Shown here: positions 5,494 to 56,401 of the stretch, in pieces | How the letters are laid out: every line of letters starts with the position of its first letter | Position numbering within the stretch: position 1 is the first letter of the stretch | From: Saprospiraceae bacterium | Lineage (GTDB): Bacteria > Bacteroidota > Bacteroidia > Chitinophagales > Saprospiraceae | DNA: 64,000 nt | Direction of reading: 5' to 3' | Assembly: GCA_020630475.1 (NCBI GenBank) | Contig: JAHDBI010000006.1 | Location: 1 to 64,000 of the forward strand | The notes under the pieces: model-generated | What the model saw: the letters and a program-made list of their open reading frames with translations, nothing else | Told to the model about the DNA's origin: nothing | The model's database searches: none | Program-made: the position numbers and the translations under genes

Positions 5494-7205
5494 TAACCTT
5501 CTGCATGATCGTCAGCTCGCCAATCTGCGACCGCATCAATACTGCCATCGTCATTTATCCATATGGCCTCTACCTTGCCAATATCACCTTTTAAGATCAA
5601 TTGGTGTCCCATCGTTTTGAGCTCATCCTTAGTCTGTTGATCAAAATTTTTAGCTTCAATTCTCAATTCATCTGGTTTCCATTGATGATGAAATCGAGGC
5701 GCATGTACGGCCTCTTTAAGACTTAGATTAAAGTCAATTTTATTGATAATCGTTTGAAATACGGACGTGATAATAGTAGATCCACCAGGTGTTCCAACAA
5801 TCATTTTTAATTTTCCATCTTTCACGACTATGGTTGGCGTCATCGAACTAAGCATTCTTTTTTGAGGTTCGATTTTATTGGCCTCAGCCCCAATAAGACC
5901 ATAAAGGTTTGGTGTGCCCGGTTTAGAAGAAAAATCATCCATTTCATTGTTTAGTAAAAAACCTGCACCCTCGACAAAAGCTTTCGAACCATATCCGCCA
6001 TTGATCGTTGTTGTCAGCGAAACCGCATTGCCATATTGATCGACAATACTAAAATGAGTTGTTTGTTCGGATTCCGAGAAGTCGCCGGCATCAAGATCCG
6101 AAGAGAAACTGGCCTTGGTGCTATCTAAAGTCGACATTCTATTTAAGAGATAGATAGAATCAAGCAAATTTTGTTGAGGCACATCATAAAAATCTGGATC
6201 ACCTAAATGCTTAGACCGATCTGCGTAAACTCTTCTTTCAGCTTCTGTCATGATATGAATCGCTTTCGCGGAATGAAAACCTAAATCGTTTAAATGATAG
6301 GGTTCAACCATTTTAAACAATTGCGCCAAGGCTATTCCACCGCTTGAAGGTGGTGGCATAGATAAAATTTCATATCCATTATAGTTACATTTTATTGGCT
6401 TTCGCCAAATGGACTTGTAGTTTTTTAAATCTTCATGATCAATAATGCCACCATTATTTTTCATGCTAATTACAATTTGATCTGCCACTGCTCCACTGTA
6501 AAATCCCTCTTTACCAAAGTCCCTAATTTGACTTAAAGTATTGGCCAGATCTTTTTGCATCAATAGGTCACCGCCTGACCAAGGATGATTTTTAACTAAG
6601 GCGGGTTGATGATTGTTATATTGTTTAAAAGCCTCTTGTTCTTGGTTAAACATTCGCGCTTGACGCTTAGTGATTTTGAAACCCCGATCTGCTAATTCAA
6701 TGGCTGGCTGAAGGAGTGCTTTCCAGTTTTTCAATTGACTGTATTGGACATATGCTTCATACATTCCGTCAACCGTTCCAGGCACTCCAGCTGCTAAATG
6801 ACCTCGAGTACTTAAATTCGCGGTGATATTTCCTAGACCATCAAGATACATATCTTTGTGTGCCTTGTTCGGAGCCATTTCTCGAAAATCCAAACAATTG
6901 ACTTCACCTTGAGCATTTCGAAACACCATAAATCCTCCTCCTCCAATATTCCCAGCCACAGGGTAACAAACAGCTAATGCAAACTGAACCGCAATAGCCG
7001 CATCCACAGCATTTCCTCCTTGTTTTAAAATGTCTATGCCAATTTTTGAAGCAATCGGATGCCCAGAAACTACGGCGGCTTTTTCTACTTGTATGGACTT
7101 ATTGAACGTATAAATAGACTTGGGACCTTTGCATGACGAAGAAAGGACCATTAAAAGAATAATGTATTTTAAACTATTGGAAATAAGCCTATTCATGTCG
7201 TACAC
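5490..7205 (-). CDS. ggt: Gamma-glutamyltransferase
   Basis: A 571-residue secreted gamma-glutamyltransferase, which hydrolyses or transfers the gamma-glutamyl group of glutathione and related compounds outside the cytoplasm. Features are GGNAVDAAIAVQFAL near residue 63, GNIGGGGFMV, the self-cleavage site before TTHFSIVD (nucleophile Thr near residue 382), GYGSKAFVEGAGFLLNNEMDDF and GTPGGSTI. The N-terminus carries a hydrophobic stretch followed by SSSC, so the protein is probably a lipoprotein. The frame opens at 7205, but the ATG at 7196 (MNRLISN) gives a more usual signal peptide start. One GGCTTTCGCCAAA motif lies at 6397-6409. Confidence 0.95.
   Translation of the reverse strand: MYDMNRLISNSLKYIILLMVLSSSCKGPKSIYTFNKSIQVEKAAVVSGHPIASKIGIDILKQGGNAVDAAIAVQFALAVCYPVAGNIGGGGFMVFRNAQGEVNCLDFREMAPNKAHKDMYLDGLGNITANLSTRGHLAAGVPGTVDGMYEAYVQYSQLKNWKALLQPAIELADRGFKITKRQARMFNQEQEAFKQYNNHQPALVKNHPWSGGDLLMQKDLANTLSQIRDFGKEGFYSGAVADQIVISMKNNGGIIDHEDLKNYKSIWRKPIKCNYNGYEILSMPPPSSGGIALAQLFKMVEPYHLNDLGFHSAKAIHIMTEAERRVYADRSKHLGDPDFYDVPQQNLLDSIYLLNRMSTLDSTKASFSSDLDAGDFSESEQTTHFSIVDQYGNAVSLTTTINGGYGSKAFVEGAGFLLNNEMDDFSSKPGTPNLYGLIGAEANKIEPQKRMLSSMTPTIVVKDGKLKMIVGTPGGSTIITSVFQTIINKIDFNLSLKEAVHAPRFHHQWKPDELRIEAKNFDQQTKDELKTMGHQLILKGDIGKVEAIWINDDGSIDAVADWRADDHAEGY
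6397..6409 (+). repeat. GGCTTTCGCCAAA motif, copy 2
   Basis: Exact match to GGCTTTCGCCRAA inside ggt, on the strand opposite to that gene. Confidence 0.7.
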
Positions 7206-7269
7206 ATATCTTATTCATGCATAATATTAAGTAAATAGATTCGTTAAGCTCTAGGGTAATATTTGAACG

Positions 7270-7292
7270 GATAAAACATATAATGTTTTATC
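7270..7292. promoter_or_regulatory. Perfect inverted repeat between divergent genes
   Basis: GATAAAACAT and ATGTTTTATC form 10-base perfect arms around a 3-base centre (ATA). The repeat lies in the 127-base gap between ggt (leftward) and the PorV/PorQ-like gene (rightward), 41 bases before the ATG of the latter. This arrangement fits an operator for a dimeric regulator acting on one or both genes. No regulator gene is next to it. Confidence 0.5.
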
Positions 7293-7332
7293 GTTATATT
7301 TACACTGTATTTTCATCAGTTAATTTACCGAA

Positions 7333-8415
7333 ATGCGTTATCATTTTCTTTTTACTTTGATTGTAATTGTTTGTTTGGGAAACACGCAAGTTACCGCTCA
7401 AACCAAGTTTGTCAATGAATTTTTAAATATTGGAGTAGGAGGGGAAGCCCAAGGGAAATTTGGAAGTGTAGTCGCTACTATAGATGACGTCACAGCTGGT
7501 TTTTGGAACCCTGCAGGTCTAGCGCACGTTGAAGCCAATTTTCAAGCGAGTGCAATGCATGCTAACTGGTTTGGTGGTATTGCCAATTATGACTACCTTT
7601 CTTTCGGTAAGAAACTAGGCGATTATGGTTCTTTTGGAAGTGTAAGTGTGATTAGAATGGGGATCGATAATATCCCTTACACTTTAAATCTCATCAACCC
7701 TGATGGCACGGTAGATTACAATAATATTTCAGAATTCTCTGCAGCTGATTACGCGGTTTTGCTATCGTATGCTCGTCAATTGAGAAACCCTGCATTATCC
7801 GTAGGAGGTAATATAAAAGTCATCCATAGATCAATCGGTAGCTTCGCAAGTGCTTGGGGATTTGGATTTGACTTTGGAGCACAGTTTAAGCAAAAGAATT
7901 ATTCCGTTGGATTAATGTTGAAAGATGTGACGAGTACGTTCAATGCTTGGAGTTTTAATTTGACAGAAGAAGAGAAAGATGTTTTTCAACAAACAAATAA
8001 CGATATCCCAGTGAGTAGCACTGAAATCGCATTGCCTAGATTAATCTTAGGTGGAGCTTATTTTGATAAGAAAGGATCTATTAGTTATTCCGCTGAAGCG
8101 AATCTAAATATATCAACTAATGGAACTCAATCCGGTGTTATTTCAGGTGATAAAATAAGTGTCGATCCTACTTTTGGACTAGAATTTGGATTTAACGATC
8201 AAGTATTTGTTAGAGCTGGTTTTGGAAATATCCAGCGGATCATTAATGATGTAAATGGTACTTCCTCTGAATTAGAATTTCAACCAAATATTGGAATGGG
8301 AATTGACCTTGGAAGAATCAAAGTAGATTATGCTCTAGCGAATGTAGCAGATGTTGGTGGAGCATTGAAGTCCCACATCTTTTCTCTTGTTTTAGATTTT
8401 AATGCCCGTAATTAA
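7333..8415 (+). CDS. PorV/PorQ family outer-membrane protein
   Basis: A 360-residue protein with a cleavable signal peptide (ending VTAQ) and the family opening FLNIGVGGEAQGKFGSVVA...DVTAGFWNPAGLA. This glycine- and Asn-rich start of a FadL-like beta-barrel is shared by PorV, PorQ and related Bacteroidota proteins. PorV and PorQ act at the outer membrane with the type IX secretion attachment complex. Which of the two this copy corresponds to, or whether it is a third paralogue, cannot be decided here. The C-terminus ends in aromatic/hydrophobic alternation (FSLVLDF) typical of barrel strands. Convergent with sppA, with overlapping stops in TTAA. Confidence 0.85.
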   Translation: MRYHFLFTLIVIVCLGNTQVTAQTKFVNEFLNIGVGGEAQGKFGSVVATIDDVTAGFWNPAGLAHVEANFQASAMHANWFGGIANYDYLSFGKKLGDYGSFGSVSVIRMGIDNIPYTLNLINPDGTVDYNNISEFSAADYAVLLSYARQLRNPALSVGGNIKVIHRSIGSFASAWGFGFDFGAQFKQKNYSVGLMLKDVTSTFNAWSFNLTEEEKDVFQQTNNDIPVSSTEIALPRLILGGAYFDKKGSISYSAEANLNISTNGTQSGVISGDKISVDPTFGLEFGFNDQVFVRAGFGNIQRIINDVNGTSSELEFQPNIGMGIDLGRIKVDYALANVADVGGALKSHIFSLVLDFNARN

Positions 8416-51013: not shown

Positions 51014-51087
51014 GGTCTCGTAGCTCAGCTGGATAGAGCAGCTCACTTCTAATGAGCAGGTCTCAGGTTCGAATCCTGACGGGATCA
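51014..51087 (+). tRNA. tRNA-Arg (TCT)
   Basis: A full cloverleaf is present: acceptor GGTCTCG/CGGGATC, D arm GCTC...GAGC, anticodon arm GCTCA-CTTCTAA-TGAGC with anticodon TCT (reads AGA), variable loop AGGTC, T arm TCAGG-TTCGAAT-CCTGA, discriminator A at 51087. CCA is not encoded. An accessory region with broken genes begins about 190 bases downstream, and tRNA genes are common integration sites. Confidence 0.95.
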
Positions 51088-51091
51088 CAAG

Positions 51092-51281: not shown

Positions 51282-52289
51282 TTAGAGCAGAACTTTTCTT
51301 TTTGACACCTCAATTTTTTCTTTAATTTCTTCAATGAATTTCATTCTGTCTATTAGGTTAGAAGTTGTAATGTTACTAGCTAATCCAACAATATGTTTTA
51401 AGTATATACTCGCATGATTACAAACTCTTTCATCATAAGAACGAATATAATTTGGAGTATCATATTTTACATATATGGCATTCCAATTATCTGATTCAAT
51501 GAGAATTTGTTCATTCCCATTAAAAAAATCATTTGTTAATATGGTAAGTTTACCACCTAAATCTTTTTTACCAGGAAACAATTTTCTGCCTTCTTTTAAA
51601 CTTCTTTCAATCAATAGGATTAGTTTGTTTAAACTATTGAATAAGCTTAATAAATTATTCTTGTCTCGATATTTCCCAAATTTTGAAAAATAGAATATTT
51701 GTCGTAGTAGATTATCAAATAGATTAGGATTCCATATTTCAACGGTTGGAAAATCGAAGTATACTTTTGTTATTTGTTCCGCCAACTTCCAAATTTCAGA
51801 GGTTACTAACTTGCCATCCATTATAGATTCATCAAAGGTTGGATTAACAAACTTCCAAACATAGATTTTAAACTCAAGTAGTTCTGGAAACATGAGATAA
51901 TAAAATAATGGCAACTCATTTGTTAAGTAAGTCCCATGAACATTTTTCAACTGGTATAGACTAGACAAATGATCTAAGATATTAGTAAAAAAATCCAAAT
52001 CATTACTCTCCTTGTGTAATGCATCTGAAAGAAAAGCATATGGAGTATCTTTTAAGTTTTCCTGTTAAGCAAAGTAATCTAACGACAACTTATATCGCTG
52101 ACAAATCTCTATTATTTCAGAAAAACTAAAACTAGTTCTTCCATTGAGCTTACCGTACAAACCACTTTTACTTATTCCTAAGAGCCGAGATATTTCATCA
52201 AGAAAATGCTCATTTTTTACATATCTCGATTTTACATCATTAAGAATTCCATTGGTTACTTTTTGACCTAACTCATTCATAATCAACAT
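51282..52289 (-). pseudogene. XRE-like regulator interrupted by one in-frame TAA
   Basis: Codons 1-74 (52289-52068) encode a helix-turn-helix protein with ISRLLGISKSGLYGKLNGRTSFSFSEIIEICQRY. A TAA follows at 52065-52067. The same frame then stays open for 22 codons (QENLKDTPYAFLSDALHKES...) and a further 238 (51998-51282), giving one 335-codon frame. The C-terminal part (YLTNELPLFYYLMFPELLEFKIYVW) looks like the ligand or effector domain that follows the HTH in a Bacteroidota regulator family I have seen with similar length. The 238-codon part has only TTG as a separate start. One nonsense codon and no frameshift: either recent inactivation, readthrough, or two shortened products. Confidence 0.75.
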
Positions 52290-52431: not shown

Positions 52432-53559
52432 ATGAAGATTCACCAAAAATCGACTATAATTATTTTTGTAAAGGTATTTACCTTTATATTATGTTGCGGT
52501 ACATTTTATAATTTTTCCATTCTTGAACCTAAAACAAGGTCATTTACTGTTACGGAATCTGTTCATTATGAACTACCAATTGGTTTTAATATCGATGAAT
52601 ACTCTAAGCTCGATATTCTTAAATTTCGTCCGAGATCATCTCAAAAAAGGCATACTGATATTCTGTTCAATGATGAGTACTCGGAAGAAATATTTTTCAA
52701 TAAAACAAGTAGAATTCTTCCTTCATGGATGCCAGAAACTGAAAAAATCATCTACTCCATTAATCATACCAAGGTTTATAAAAAGAGTTTAAAAGGAAAA
52801 CCTTCAGAGGTAAAAACATTCAAAAACAACTCAATAGAGAAAGAAGATTTTATTTCTCGAAAAAATCAATTTATACACGAACATGCTTACTCAAAATTTG
52901 AATCTGGTCAGGATATCTTGGCAAAATATAAAAATGATGTTAGCGCCATCATTACACAGAAAAATGAATGCCAGGAAATAGCTACCAAAAATTTACTTTT
53001 TAAAGTATTCCCCAATAATACATATACTAAGATTAACTTTGAAAAAGGTACATCTACTCATTTCTTTCCAGAATCATTTATGAGCATTCCTACTGTGGAT
53101 ATTTCTCACGACCAAATCTTAATTAGATATGGCGCCAATTCATAAGGTTACATTGTTCCAGTCAAAGAAATTTGGTCGAGCCCGAAGACATTATATGATG
53201 GAAAGTGTGTAAAAAGAATAATTACTAAGGAATATTCTGACTATTTATTAGAAGGTTTTGAAGAAGATGGTAATGATGATTCTGAGGTGTTTTCGAGAAG
53301 TGTTCATGACAAAAAGGCTACGTTTTCAATTTTTCCAAATCCAATAAATGAGCACGTAATAATTGAAACATCACATCACCTTTTAAACTTGTCAAATATA
53401 TTGTTACTCGATATTAATGGTCAATCTCTTTCTTGTAGAATGGAAATGAATCCAGAAAATCGTATTAAAATACATACTGACAAACTGGAAGCCGGAGTAT
53501 ATTTTATAAAAATCATTTCTCCTACCTTAAATATCTCTGAGCAAATAATTAAATTTTAA
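52432..53559 (+). pseudogene. Secreted T9SS cargo protein interrupted by one in-frame TAA
   Basis: Codons 1-237 start with a signal-anchor-like stretch (IIIFVKVFTFILCCGTFYN) and end at TAA 53143-53145. The frame then continues unbroken for 138 codons to 53559 (GYIVPVKEIWSSPKTLYDGK and onward), ending in a T9SS type A sorting domain (FSIFPNPINEHVIIE...GVYFIKII). Without passing the TAA the product lacks the sorting domain and could not be attached or exported normally by T9SS. The central region is not recognised. A separate start at GTG 53287 would make only an orphan sorting domain, so the frame is best read as one gene of 376 codons. Confidence 0.75.
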
Positions 53560-53581: not shown

Positions 53582-55150
53582 ATGAAATATATAATAACAC
53601 TACTATTAACTATAGTGACAATCTGTGAATTTAGCCAAGTATGTCCGACTACTAAATTTGAAATCGATAAAATAAATGATGAAAGCATACCTTTTATTGC
53701 ACCAGAAGCCTTTTTGCCAAATGGAAATGGTCCTGATACCACAACCGCTCCTGAATACACTGGACCCAGAATGGTTGCCTTTGTTCATGGAATAGCAGCT
53801 TCCCAAAACACATGGGTCGCACAGAGAGATTATTTATCTGTGGAGTTTAACACTTTTGTTCCTCACATTGAGTATAATCATCAATCTATTACAGATGCTG
53901 CGTTCGATGTTAATGGAACACTTAGAACGGCTAATGAACAATTAAATACACAAATGGAAGGACCCGATGGTTTAGGTCCATCCTACGACAAATCAAAAAG
54001 TTTTATAATTGCACATAGCTTGGGAGGGATTGTAGCTAGACGTCTAGAACACAATCATGAAGAAATTAACAACCCTAATTGGTCGAAAGAATATAACGGT
54101 TTAATAACTTTTGGAACTCCTCATCAAGGAACATATATTGCTAATAATAGCGACCTCGCAGTTCAATGGACTCAAGAAGGTTGTGAACTTTTCTCATATG
54201 CCTACTTTAACGAGGCTATTAGTCAAATTGACATTCCCTACGTCCCTGCATTTGCTGAAAAATTCCTAACGAGTTTTTTGAAAAACACAGCTTTTGGCGA
54301 AGCTAAAAGTAAGAAGTTCTTAGATGATTATATTACCAATAATGGGAGTGGTGGTATTATAGGAAATGGAATATGTAATGAAGGGCTCAATTTTTTAGTT
54401 GGAGGTAAAATTGCTGAAATGCTTCCACCAATTGGTGAAGATATGCTTCCTGATTCTGAGAATATGACTGAACTTCAGAACAATAGCTTTGACTATCCTA
54501 TTATTACGGCATACGGAATTGAAACAACTCCTGTATCTTTAAAACAAATGTTTGCCGCAACAAAAAATACAAATGTAGACTATCCTTTATGGGGTGCAGA
54601 TGATGAATTAGGTGAAGATGAGTTCGAAGATATATATGAGGACATATTAGATAGAACATATTCGAAATATGAAAAATGGGCGATGATACCATATTGGGGA
54701 GATTCTCATCGTGATGCGTTTTAATCAGCTTATGAGTGGTTAAGTATTTTGGACGAACAATATCGTATCATTTTTGATATTGACTACATTGAAACTAATA
54801 TTGTCGATACTGAAATAGCTTGTAAGTGTGAAACTCCTGGGTTTGAAATTATTATAGATTGTGAAGAAACAACACTTGATGGTCCTTTTGGATCATTATA
54901 TGAGCTTGATTGTGAAGAGATAGAAGTACCAATTTATGAACATACAATCATACAAAACGAAAGTGATGCCGTTGTTCGTGCGAATTCCTCATCTGCATTG
55001 AACCATGGTAATACATTCATTCCTATAAACATGGCAGGAAGTAATCACACGAATATGAAAAATGATCTTAACACGAAGTTTATTTTTGATACATATTTAA
55101 GCCCCGATGAGGAATTTCCAATTAAAACATTTAAGTTGACTAAATTATAA
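53582..55150 (+). pseudogene. Exported lipase-like alpha/beta hydrolase interrupted by one in-frame TAA
   Basis: A signal peptide (IITLLLTIVTIC) precedes an alpha/beta hydrolase resembling PGAP1-like or triacylglycerol lipases: MVAFVHGIAASQNTW (oxyanion region) and the nucleophile elbow AHSLGG with S146, then GLITFGTPHQGTY. TAA occurs at 54722-54724 after SHRDAF. The frame continues for 142 codons with ESDAVVRANSS (candidate catalytic D462) and GSNHTNMKND (candidate catalytic H489; numbering counts the stop as one position). The usual order Ser-Asp-His is therefore complete only across the TAA. The separate downstream frame has only a TTG start. Confidence 0.78.
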
Positions 55151-55162
55151 AAATTTACTTTC

Positions 55163-56401
55163 ATGAGATTATCAATAATTTTAGTTACCACCATGTTAGC
55201 ATTCAACCTAATTCTAAGTTGCGGATGTTCAGAGCCATTTGTTCCAACTATGCCTAAAGAGCCTATGGATTCGATTGATTATAATCTTTTATGGGAAGTT
55301 CCAATAAATGAGGATACTACAATTGTAAGTGAACCTTTTTTAACAAAACTATACCAAGATCAGATATTAGTAGAAAGGGACGTGCTTGGTTTGTCACCTT
55401 CTAGAGCAGAATTACTTTCACTTGATGCTGCTTCTGGAGATTATTTATGGTATTGGAACGCCAATGAAACTATTTCTAGTCTTGCCAATAGACCAGTTTT
55501 CGATGATTCTAATTTTTTTATTGCAGCTGGCAACAATTATCATTCTTTAGATTTATCCTCCGGCGGATCAAATTGGTCCTTGGATTATTCGGATAGCGAT
55601 GGTGGTAATATTTACAGCTTCTTGAATCTAGATAGTGATAGACTTGTTGGTGTAGTACGATATGGAATTTCTGAAATATATAATAACAAAATTGTTTTTA
55701 TAGATAAAAACAATGGTCTAATAAATGAATTGTTCACAGTGGGATTAGACAATGACGGATTTACTAAATCTGTTGAATTTGTTAAACCTTATAAAGACTC
55801 TTCAAATAATCAAATGCTCCTGATAGGTATTGTGAAAACTAAAAATTCTCCATTTGAATTAAAATCTAGTTTAATCAATTATAATTTGGATAGCAATTCT
55901 ACGGTATGGGAGGTTACTGAAATTAATGATGCCATCATGAGTACGAGTATACCAATTATAGAAAATGATCATTTATATGTTCTTAATTTCAAGGGCATGA
56001 CTTGTTTCAACATTAACTCTGGTGATGTTATATGGGATAAAATCTACAATAACATTCGGTTCCTCGGCAATCATTTGATTACGGGAAGTAGCGTTATTTT
56101 TGGGAGTTCTACAGGAAATGTGATTGCCTTAGATAAAAACTCTGGTGTCGAATTATTTAATAAAAGTTTTGGACCAAATGTTTCAAATATTAATTATTTC
56201 GACAATAAATTATTTTTCTGTAACAGTAAACTTCGTATACTAAGCGCAGAGACCGGTGATATTCTACATGAGTTAGAATCAAAAAACGACAATATAGGTT
56301 CTAATTGTTTTTTTAATAACAGAGTAGCAATTAATGAAGTGGATAGTATTATGTACGTTCAAGATAATTATTTTGTTCAGGCAATTAAAATCCCTAATTA
56401 G
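55163..56401 (+). CDS. Lipoprotein with PQQ-like beta-propeller repeats
   Basis: A 412-residue intact lipoprotein. The N-terminus is a hydrophobic signal ending in LILSCGC (lipobox). The mature part shows repeated outer-strand motifs of a PQQ/WD-like propeller: LLSLDAASGDYLWYW, YHSLDLSSGGSNWSLDY, FNINSGDVIWDK, IALDKNSGVELFNKSF and LSAETGDILHELES. Such proteins scaffold complexes or bind ligands; no enzyme residues are seen. It is the only large gene of the island without an internal stop. It lies 12 bases after the hydrolase gene and is followed by a clear terminator, so the three rightward genes probably form one transcript. Confidence 0.85.
   Translation: MRLSIILVTTMLAFNLILSCGCSEPFVPTMPKEPMDSIDYNLLWEVPINEDTTIVSEPFLTKLYQDQILVERDVLGLSPSRAELLSLDAASGDYLWYWNANETISSLANRPVFDDSNFFIAAGNNYHSLDLSSGGSNWSLDYSDSDGGNIYSFLNLDSDRLVGVVRYGISEIYNNKIVFIDKNNGLINELFTVGLDNDGFTKSVEFVKPYKDSSNNQMLLIGIVKTKNSPFELKSSLINYNLDSNSTVWEVTEINDAIMSTSIPIIENDHLYVLNFKGMTCFNINSGDVIWDKIYNNIRFLGNHLITGSSVIFGSSTGNVIALDKNSGVELFNKSFGPNVSNINYFDNKLFFCNSKLRILSAETGDILHELESKNDNIGSNCFFNNRVAINEVDSIMYVQDNYFVQAIKIPN

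Follow-up and report, generated by a model that had tools for sequence, protein, structure and literature searches.

Bacterial true lipases of family I.5 (such as 2w22/5ce5) and family I.1 (such as Burkholderia 1ys1 and P. aeruginosa 1ex9), together with BlEst2 (6wpy), carry their catalytic residues in the same Ser-Asp-His order as the lipase-like gene described here, which lies in a window of 64,000 nucleotides from a Saprospiraceae bacterium. They also share a fold with residues 57-520 of its predicted model (VIA Z 15.8-18.0, rmsd 3.2-4.4 Å over 217-249 residues). The window lipase differs from these enzymes in sequence (13-17% identity), in a long insertion between strand 307-313 and the Asp loop, within which an in-frame TAA falls, and in its genomic setting, a cassette that also encodes a T9SS-tail protein and a BamB-like lipoprotein. 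DUF676 and PGAP1-like serine esterases match its N-terminal half, whereas a Pfam search of the part after the TAA matched no family.

The second group with which the locus can be compared comprises genes bearing internal stops. Belinky et al. reported that in-frame stops occur widely in bacterial genes, that most of them do not persist, and that dN/dS downstream of them is below 1 (PMC7918605), and Cooley and Wright described how assembly errors can create internal stops (PMC11017572). Like the nonsense pseudogenes and in-frame-stop genes of the former study, the window lipase has a single stop in an otherwise intact frame. In contrast to them, three adjacent genes of a small region are affected, and the genome contains an intact paralogue of the cassette. 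We propose, with a probability of about 0.72, that the lipase is a nonsense-mutated, probably inactive copy in a recently decayed, partly redundant cassette, and that decay of the three genes has not yet gone far.

Results

Position of the stop relative to the catalytic residues

The 522-codon lipase frame is interrupted by a single TAA, at codon 381 (Table 1). The part before it encodes a hydrophobic, signal-peptide-like N-terminus, the start of an alpha/beta-hydrolase fold and the nucleophile elbow of the family, xHSxGG, present here as AHSLGG with Ser146. This half matched DUF676 above the curated cut-off (E 6.5e-08) and PGAP1 just above it (2.5e-05); a palmitoyl thioesterase model also matched the first 380 codons, more weakly than DUF676. 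The part after the TAA holds Asp462 (ESDAVV) and His489 (GSNHTNMKND), giving the Ser-Asp-His order of the family, with the Asp and His following the cap and reached only in the read-through frame. The initial annotation had placed Ser146 upstream of the TAA and the other two residues downstream. Its frame and residue numbering proved correct when checked against the sequence, and the split itself was borne out by the translation and by the alignments.

Table 1. Features of the interrupted region, numbered from the first nucleotide of the window
Feature	Coordinates	Strand	Evidence or remark
tRNA-Arg (UCU)	51014-51088	+	edge of the lower-GC stretch with the broken genes
HTH regulator, 335 codons	51282-52289	-	all matched relatives have an open frame
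In-frame TAA of the HTH regulator	52065-52067	-	just past the HTH domain; only in the window copy
Cassette gene 1, T9SS type A sorting-tail protein	52432-53559	+	Por_Secre_tail E 1.3e-10; TIGR04183
In-frame TAA of cassette gene 1	53143-53145	+	before the sorting tail; closest relatives Gln or Glu
Lipase frame, 522 codons	53582-55150	+	start ATG 53582; terminator TAA 55148-55150
Lipase N-terminal part, codons 1-380	53582-54721	+	DUF676/PGAP1 matches; Ser146 invariant
Lipase in-frame TAA, codon 381	54722-54724	+	the two relatives nearest to it align a Tyr here
Lipase C-terminal part, codons 382-522 and terminal TAA	54725-55150	+	aligns over its whole length with relatives and with the intact paralogue
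Cassette gene 3, BamB/PQQ-like beta-propeller lipoprotein, intact	55163-56401	+	PQQ_2 E 2.8e-12; full-length alignment with the C54 paralogue

Conservation of the triad and distribution of the stop

Ser146, Asp462 and His489 form invariant columns both in an alignment of 18 sequences and in one of 14 sequences from another collection, the two sharing at least two genomes. Cys416, Cys444 and Asn494 are likewise invariant in the 18-sequence alignment. In the widest alignment every one of the 30 rows has the Ser, and 29, all but the row L023, extend as far as the Asp and the His and carry both. Such invariance is more than chance would give, and what follows the TAA is thus the genuine C-terminal part of the family's proteins. 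The gene is a copy of one for a secreted alpha/beta-hydrolase (lipase/esterase), whose family is present in part of what are probably the Saprospiraceae, since the relatives retrieved with names come from Saprospiraceae MAGs.

Relatives in genome contigs were found by a search with a four-sequence alignment, a single-sequence scan having found none. When the intact paralogue was used as query against 298 genomes of the family, matches were obtained in 55 genomes, mostly as open frames of about 500-590 codons. Among some 70 related places in the 298 genomes, only the window's lipase copy has an internal stop. The stop is thus private: conservation in orthologues or paralogues, as looked for in programmed readthrough, was seen in none of those found. 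One candidate for a second truncated lipase (L023) was rejected, its frame running off the end of the contig. A search of viral contigs found no relatives, and a viral origin was rejected.

Predicted fold of the full-length chain

The full-length lipase was modelled with AlphaFold2, reading the TAA as Gln and using 13 relatives in the alignment. The model has a mean pLDDT of 71.2 and a pTM of 0.70, with values of 83-93 for the 10-residue blocks around the triad; the N-terminus and the cap are poorly predicted. It contains a strand-nucleophile-helix motif (141-162) and strand 307-313, followed by a long helical and beta insertion, and it is between this strand and the Asp loop that codon 381 falls. 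A later strand (479-485) is flanked by the Asp on one side and the His on the other. Residues 57-520 of the model aligned with solved lipases, best with PlaB (VIA Z 18.3) and BlEst2 (18.0), then with family I.5 lipases (16.4-17.5) and the P. aeruginosa lipase (15.9). Foldseek placed the same lipase families at the top of its ranking, with low TM-scores.

In this predicted fold a 380-residue product would be without the Asp loop, the last strand and the His, and it should therefore be inactive. The same expectation had been voiced in the initial annotation, and the conservation of the triad and the model, in which both the Asp and the His are lost upon truncation, point the same way.

Two neighbouring genes are interrupted in the same manner

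The lipase stop is one of three. The two neighbouring genes, of whose stops the initial annotation had made no mention, are likewise interrupted: a single in-frame TAA, unaccompanied by any frameshift, is present both in the HTH regulator and in the T9SS-tail gene (Table 1). The stretch with the broken genes has a GC content of about 28-35%, compared with about 34-39% outside it, and is adjoined by the tRNA-Arg gene. A direct repeat of the 3' end of this tRNA gene was sought around the region and was absent, and a mobile-element boundary at this point was rejected.

An intact paralogous cassette, consisting of a T9SS-tail protein, a lipase and a BamB-like lipoprotein, is present in the same genome on contig C54 (L098, 1927-5900), and intact three-gene cassettes were also found in two other genomes. 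A tRNA gene is found close to the cassette in three genomes, a different one in each case: Arg in the window, Cys (L100, 2168-2239) and Ala (L101, 934-1008). The C54 copy is not near a tRNA gene.

Comparison of the sequences before and after the stop

The initial annotation had suggested comparing dN/dS before and after the TAA in relatives. Over such distances synonymous sites are saturated, and we therefore made a closely related comparison at the protein level. Identity to the two nearest relatives was 40-41% upstream of the stop and 42-45% downstream of it, and otherwise invariant sites were changed at 5/32 positions after the stop and 23/83 before it, the relatives in both cases being too distant to date a young stop. 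Branch lengths before and after the stop are uninformative at such divergence. The T9SS-tail gene behaved like the lipase, without extra drift after its stop. For the lipase this tells no more than that the stop is young. By our computation nonsense changes make up about 3-5% of random substitutions in these genes. A gene with one lesion would therefore have undergone neutral change of only a few per cent, which is invisible at 40% identity. The protein-level comparison revealed no extra drift downstream; with nearest relatives about 41% identical, the comparison suggested in the initial annotation does not decide the case. A young lipase stop is consistent with the short life of in-frame stops and the downstream dN/dS below 1 reported by Belinky et al. 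(PMC7918605).

Discussion

The results favour recent decay of a partly redundant cassette. The stops are absent from the relatives of the lipase and of both its neighbours, and the truncated lipase is missing its Asp and His, as is looked for in a pseudogene. At the three stops the relatives carry different residues: a mixture in the regulator, mostly Gln or Glu in close T9SS proteins and, in the two lipases closest to that of the window, Tyr. Such a pattern is expected of random nonsense mutations, and the differences argue against a single reassigned amino acid. The genome does carry decaying genes, since contig C69 holds an older pseudogene, interrupted by several stops and apparently also by breaks of frame. 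This older pseudogene (L126, about 6984-8100, minus strand) encodes a T9SS-tail protein that resembles leucine-rich-repeat proteins.

Under this explanation, the cassette would have become dispensable, being partly redundant with the C54 copy, and one lesion would have relaxed selection on the remaining genes; decay of the regulator, of the T9SS-tail gene and of the lipase would still be in its first stages. Translation of the lipase would stop at codon 380 and give a stub lacking Asp462 and His489, which would hydrolyse no substrate and would probably be degraded. The composition of the lesions speaks somewhat against decay, as does the lack of any acceleration of change beyond the stops. All three are nonsense mutations and none is a frameshift, for which the chance is 4 to 12% if between a third and a half of inactivating mutations are assumed to be nonsense; that all three stops are TAA has a chance of about 10%, again with assumed shares. 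The all-nonsense, all-TAA pattern is mildly odd, and not a strong objection.

The best of the other explanations, although an unlikely one, is that the genes are intact in the cells and that wrong or minority bases entered the consensus through misassembly or a mixture of strains. The genome is probably a binned draft, since it consists of 124 contigs with a completeness of 89.9 and a contamination of 2.09, and spurious internal stops of this origin are known (PMC11017572). However, an error process would have had to make three independent in-frame substitutions to TAA within 2.7 kb without a single frameshift, while no similar gene was recognised in a 367 kb sample of the genome, and this is an improbable pattern.

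It is considerably less probable that the stops are functional, such that a near-cognate or suppressor tRNA reads the TAAs and yields a little full-length regulator, T9SS protein and lipase, possibly as a switch. Such recoding would fit the finding of one stop per gene, each a TAA, in frames that are otherwise intact, with conserved catalytic residues beyond the lipase stop, and in-frame stops with purifying selection downstream are reported to be widespread in bacteria (PMC7918605). Yet the lipase and regulator stops were seen in no relative, and the residues aligned at the three positions disagree. The RNA structure 3' of the three stops was no better than that of shuffled sequences (z 0.0, -0.8 and -0.6). 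The genes for both RF1 and RF2 (prfA and prfB), which recognise TAA, are present, and the T9SS-tail gene and the lipase themselves terminate with TAA. A tRNA with the anticodon UUA was absent among the tRNAs found, a list that is incomplete for this draft genome; nor did the anticodon occur in the 60 loci matching an anticodon-arm pattern, whose counts were at or below those of a reversed control.

A general reassignment of TAA was rejected. This codon is the usual terminator, ending 22/27 long frames in the window, the T9SS-tail gene and the lipase included; both release factors are present; and in the 367 kb sample we recognised no further gene whose in-frame stop looked coding-like. The two most suspicious other in-frame stops, judged by eye and without a clear start codon, turned out to be gene boundaries (SAICAR synthetase/HD phosphohydrolase and Dabb/aminotransferase). 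None of the 150 T9SS tails examined had an internal stop, only a handful lying in short frames. As a separate observation, a locus on contig C78 (14000-30000; L129, 3379-8961) was seen by eye to carry an RtcB-like ligase, an array of eight tRNA genes, a TPR-like protein, a second RtcB-like ligase and a PrfH-like release factor; this row looks like an RNA-repair locus carrying its own tRNAs.

The initial annotation had seen in the lipase a clean test case for readthrough. The results do not support this view, given that the stop is private, that the cassette has an intact paralogue, that both neighbours are broken and that nothing that would decode TAA turned up in the sequences surveyed. We consider readthrough improbable.

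That the truncated products function is slightly less probable still, whether as the first 380 lipase residues alone or as two separately translated halves that assemble. The upstream part does retain the hydrophobic N-terminus and Ser146, and a TTG start codon is available at 54749. Against this, there is no ATG shortly after the lipase stop, and the C-terminal half would lack a signal peptide, so the two halves would be in different compartments. Furthermore, the truncated T9SS protein would be without its sorting tail, and the lipase is a single chain in the matched relatives. We regard as the least probable idea of all a genetic switch in which a three-gene island of regulator, T9SS cargo and lipase partner is kept off by one TAA each and is co-expressed under conditional suppression of stops.

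Recent decay of the cassette therefore remains the explanation that we prefer. The gene is a weaker test case for readthrough than had been hoped, yet the split triad would give an all-or-nothing activity readout for leakage at the TAA. The present analysis documents a conserved three-gene cassette in Saprospiraceae, consisting of a T9SS-tail protein, a lipase and a BamB-like lipoprotein, and suggests that the lipase stop is not an isolated event, but probably belongs to a short region in decay, whose cassette has an intact counterpart at another place in the genome.
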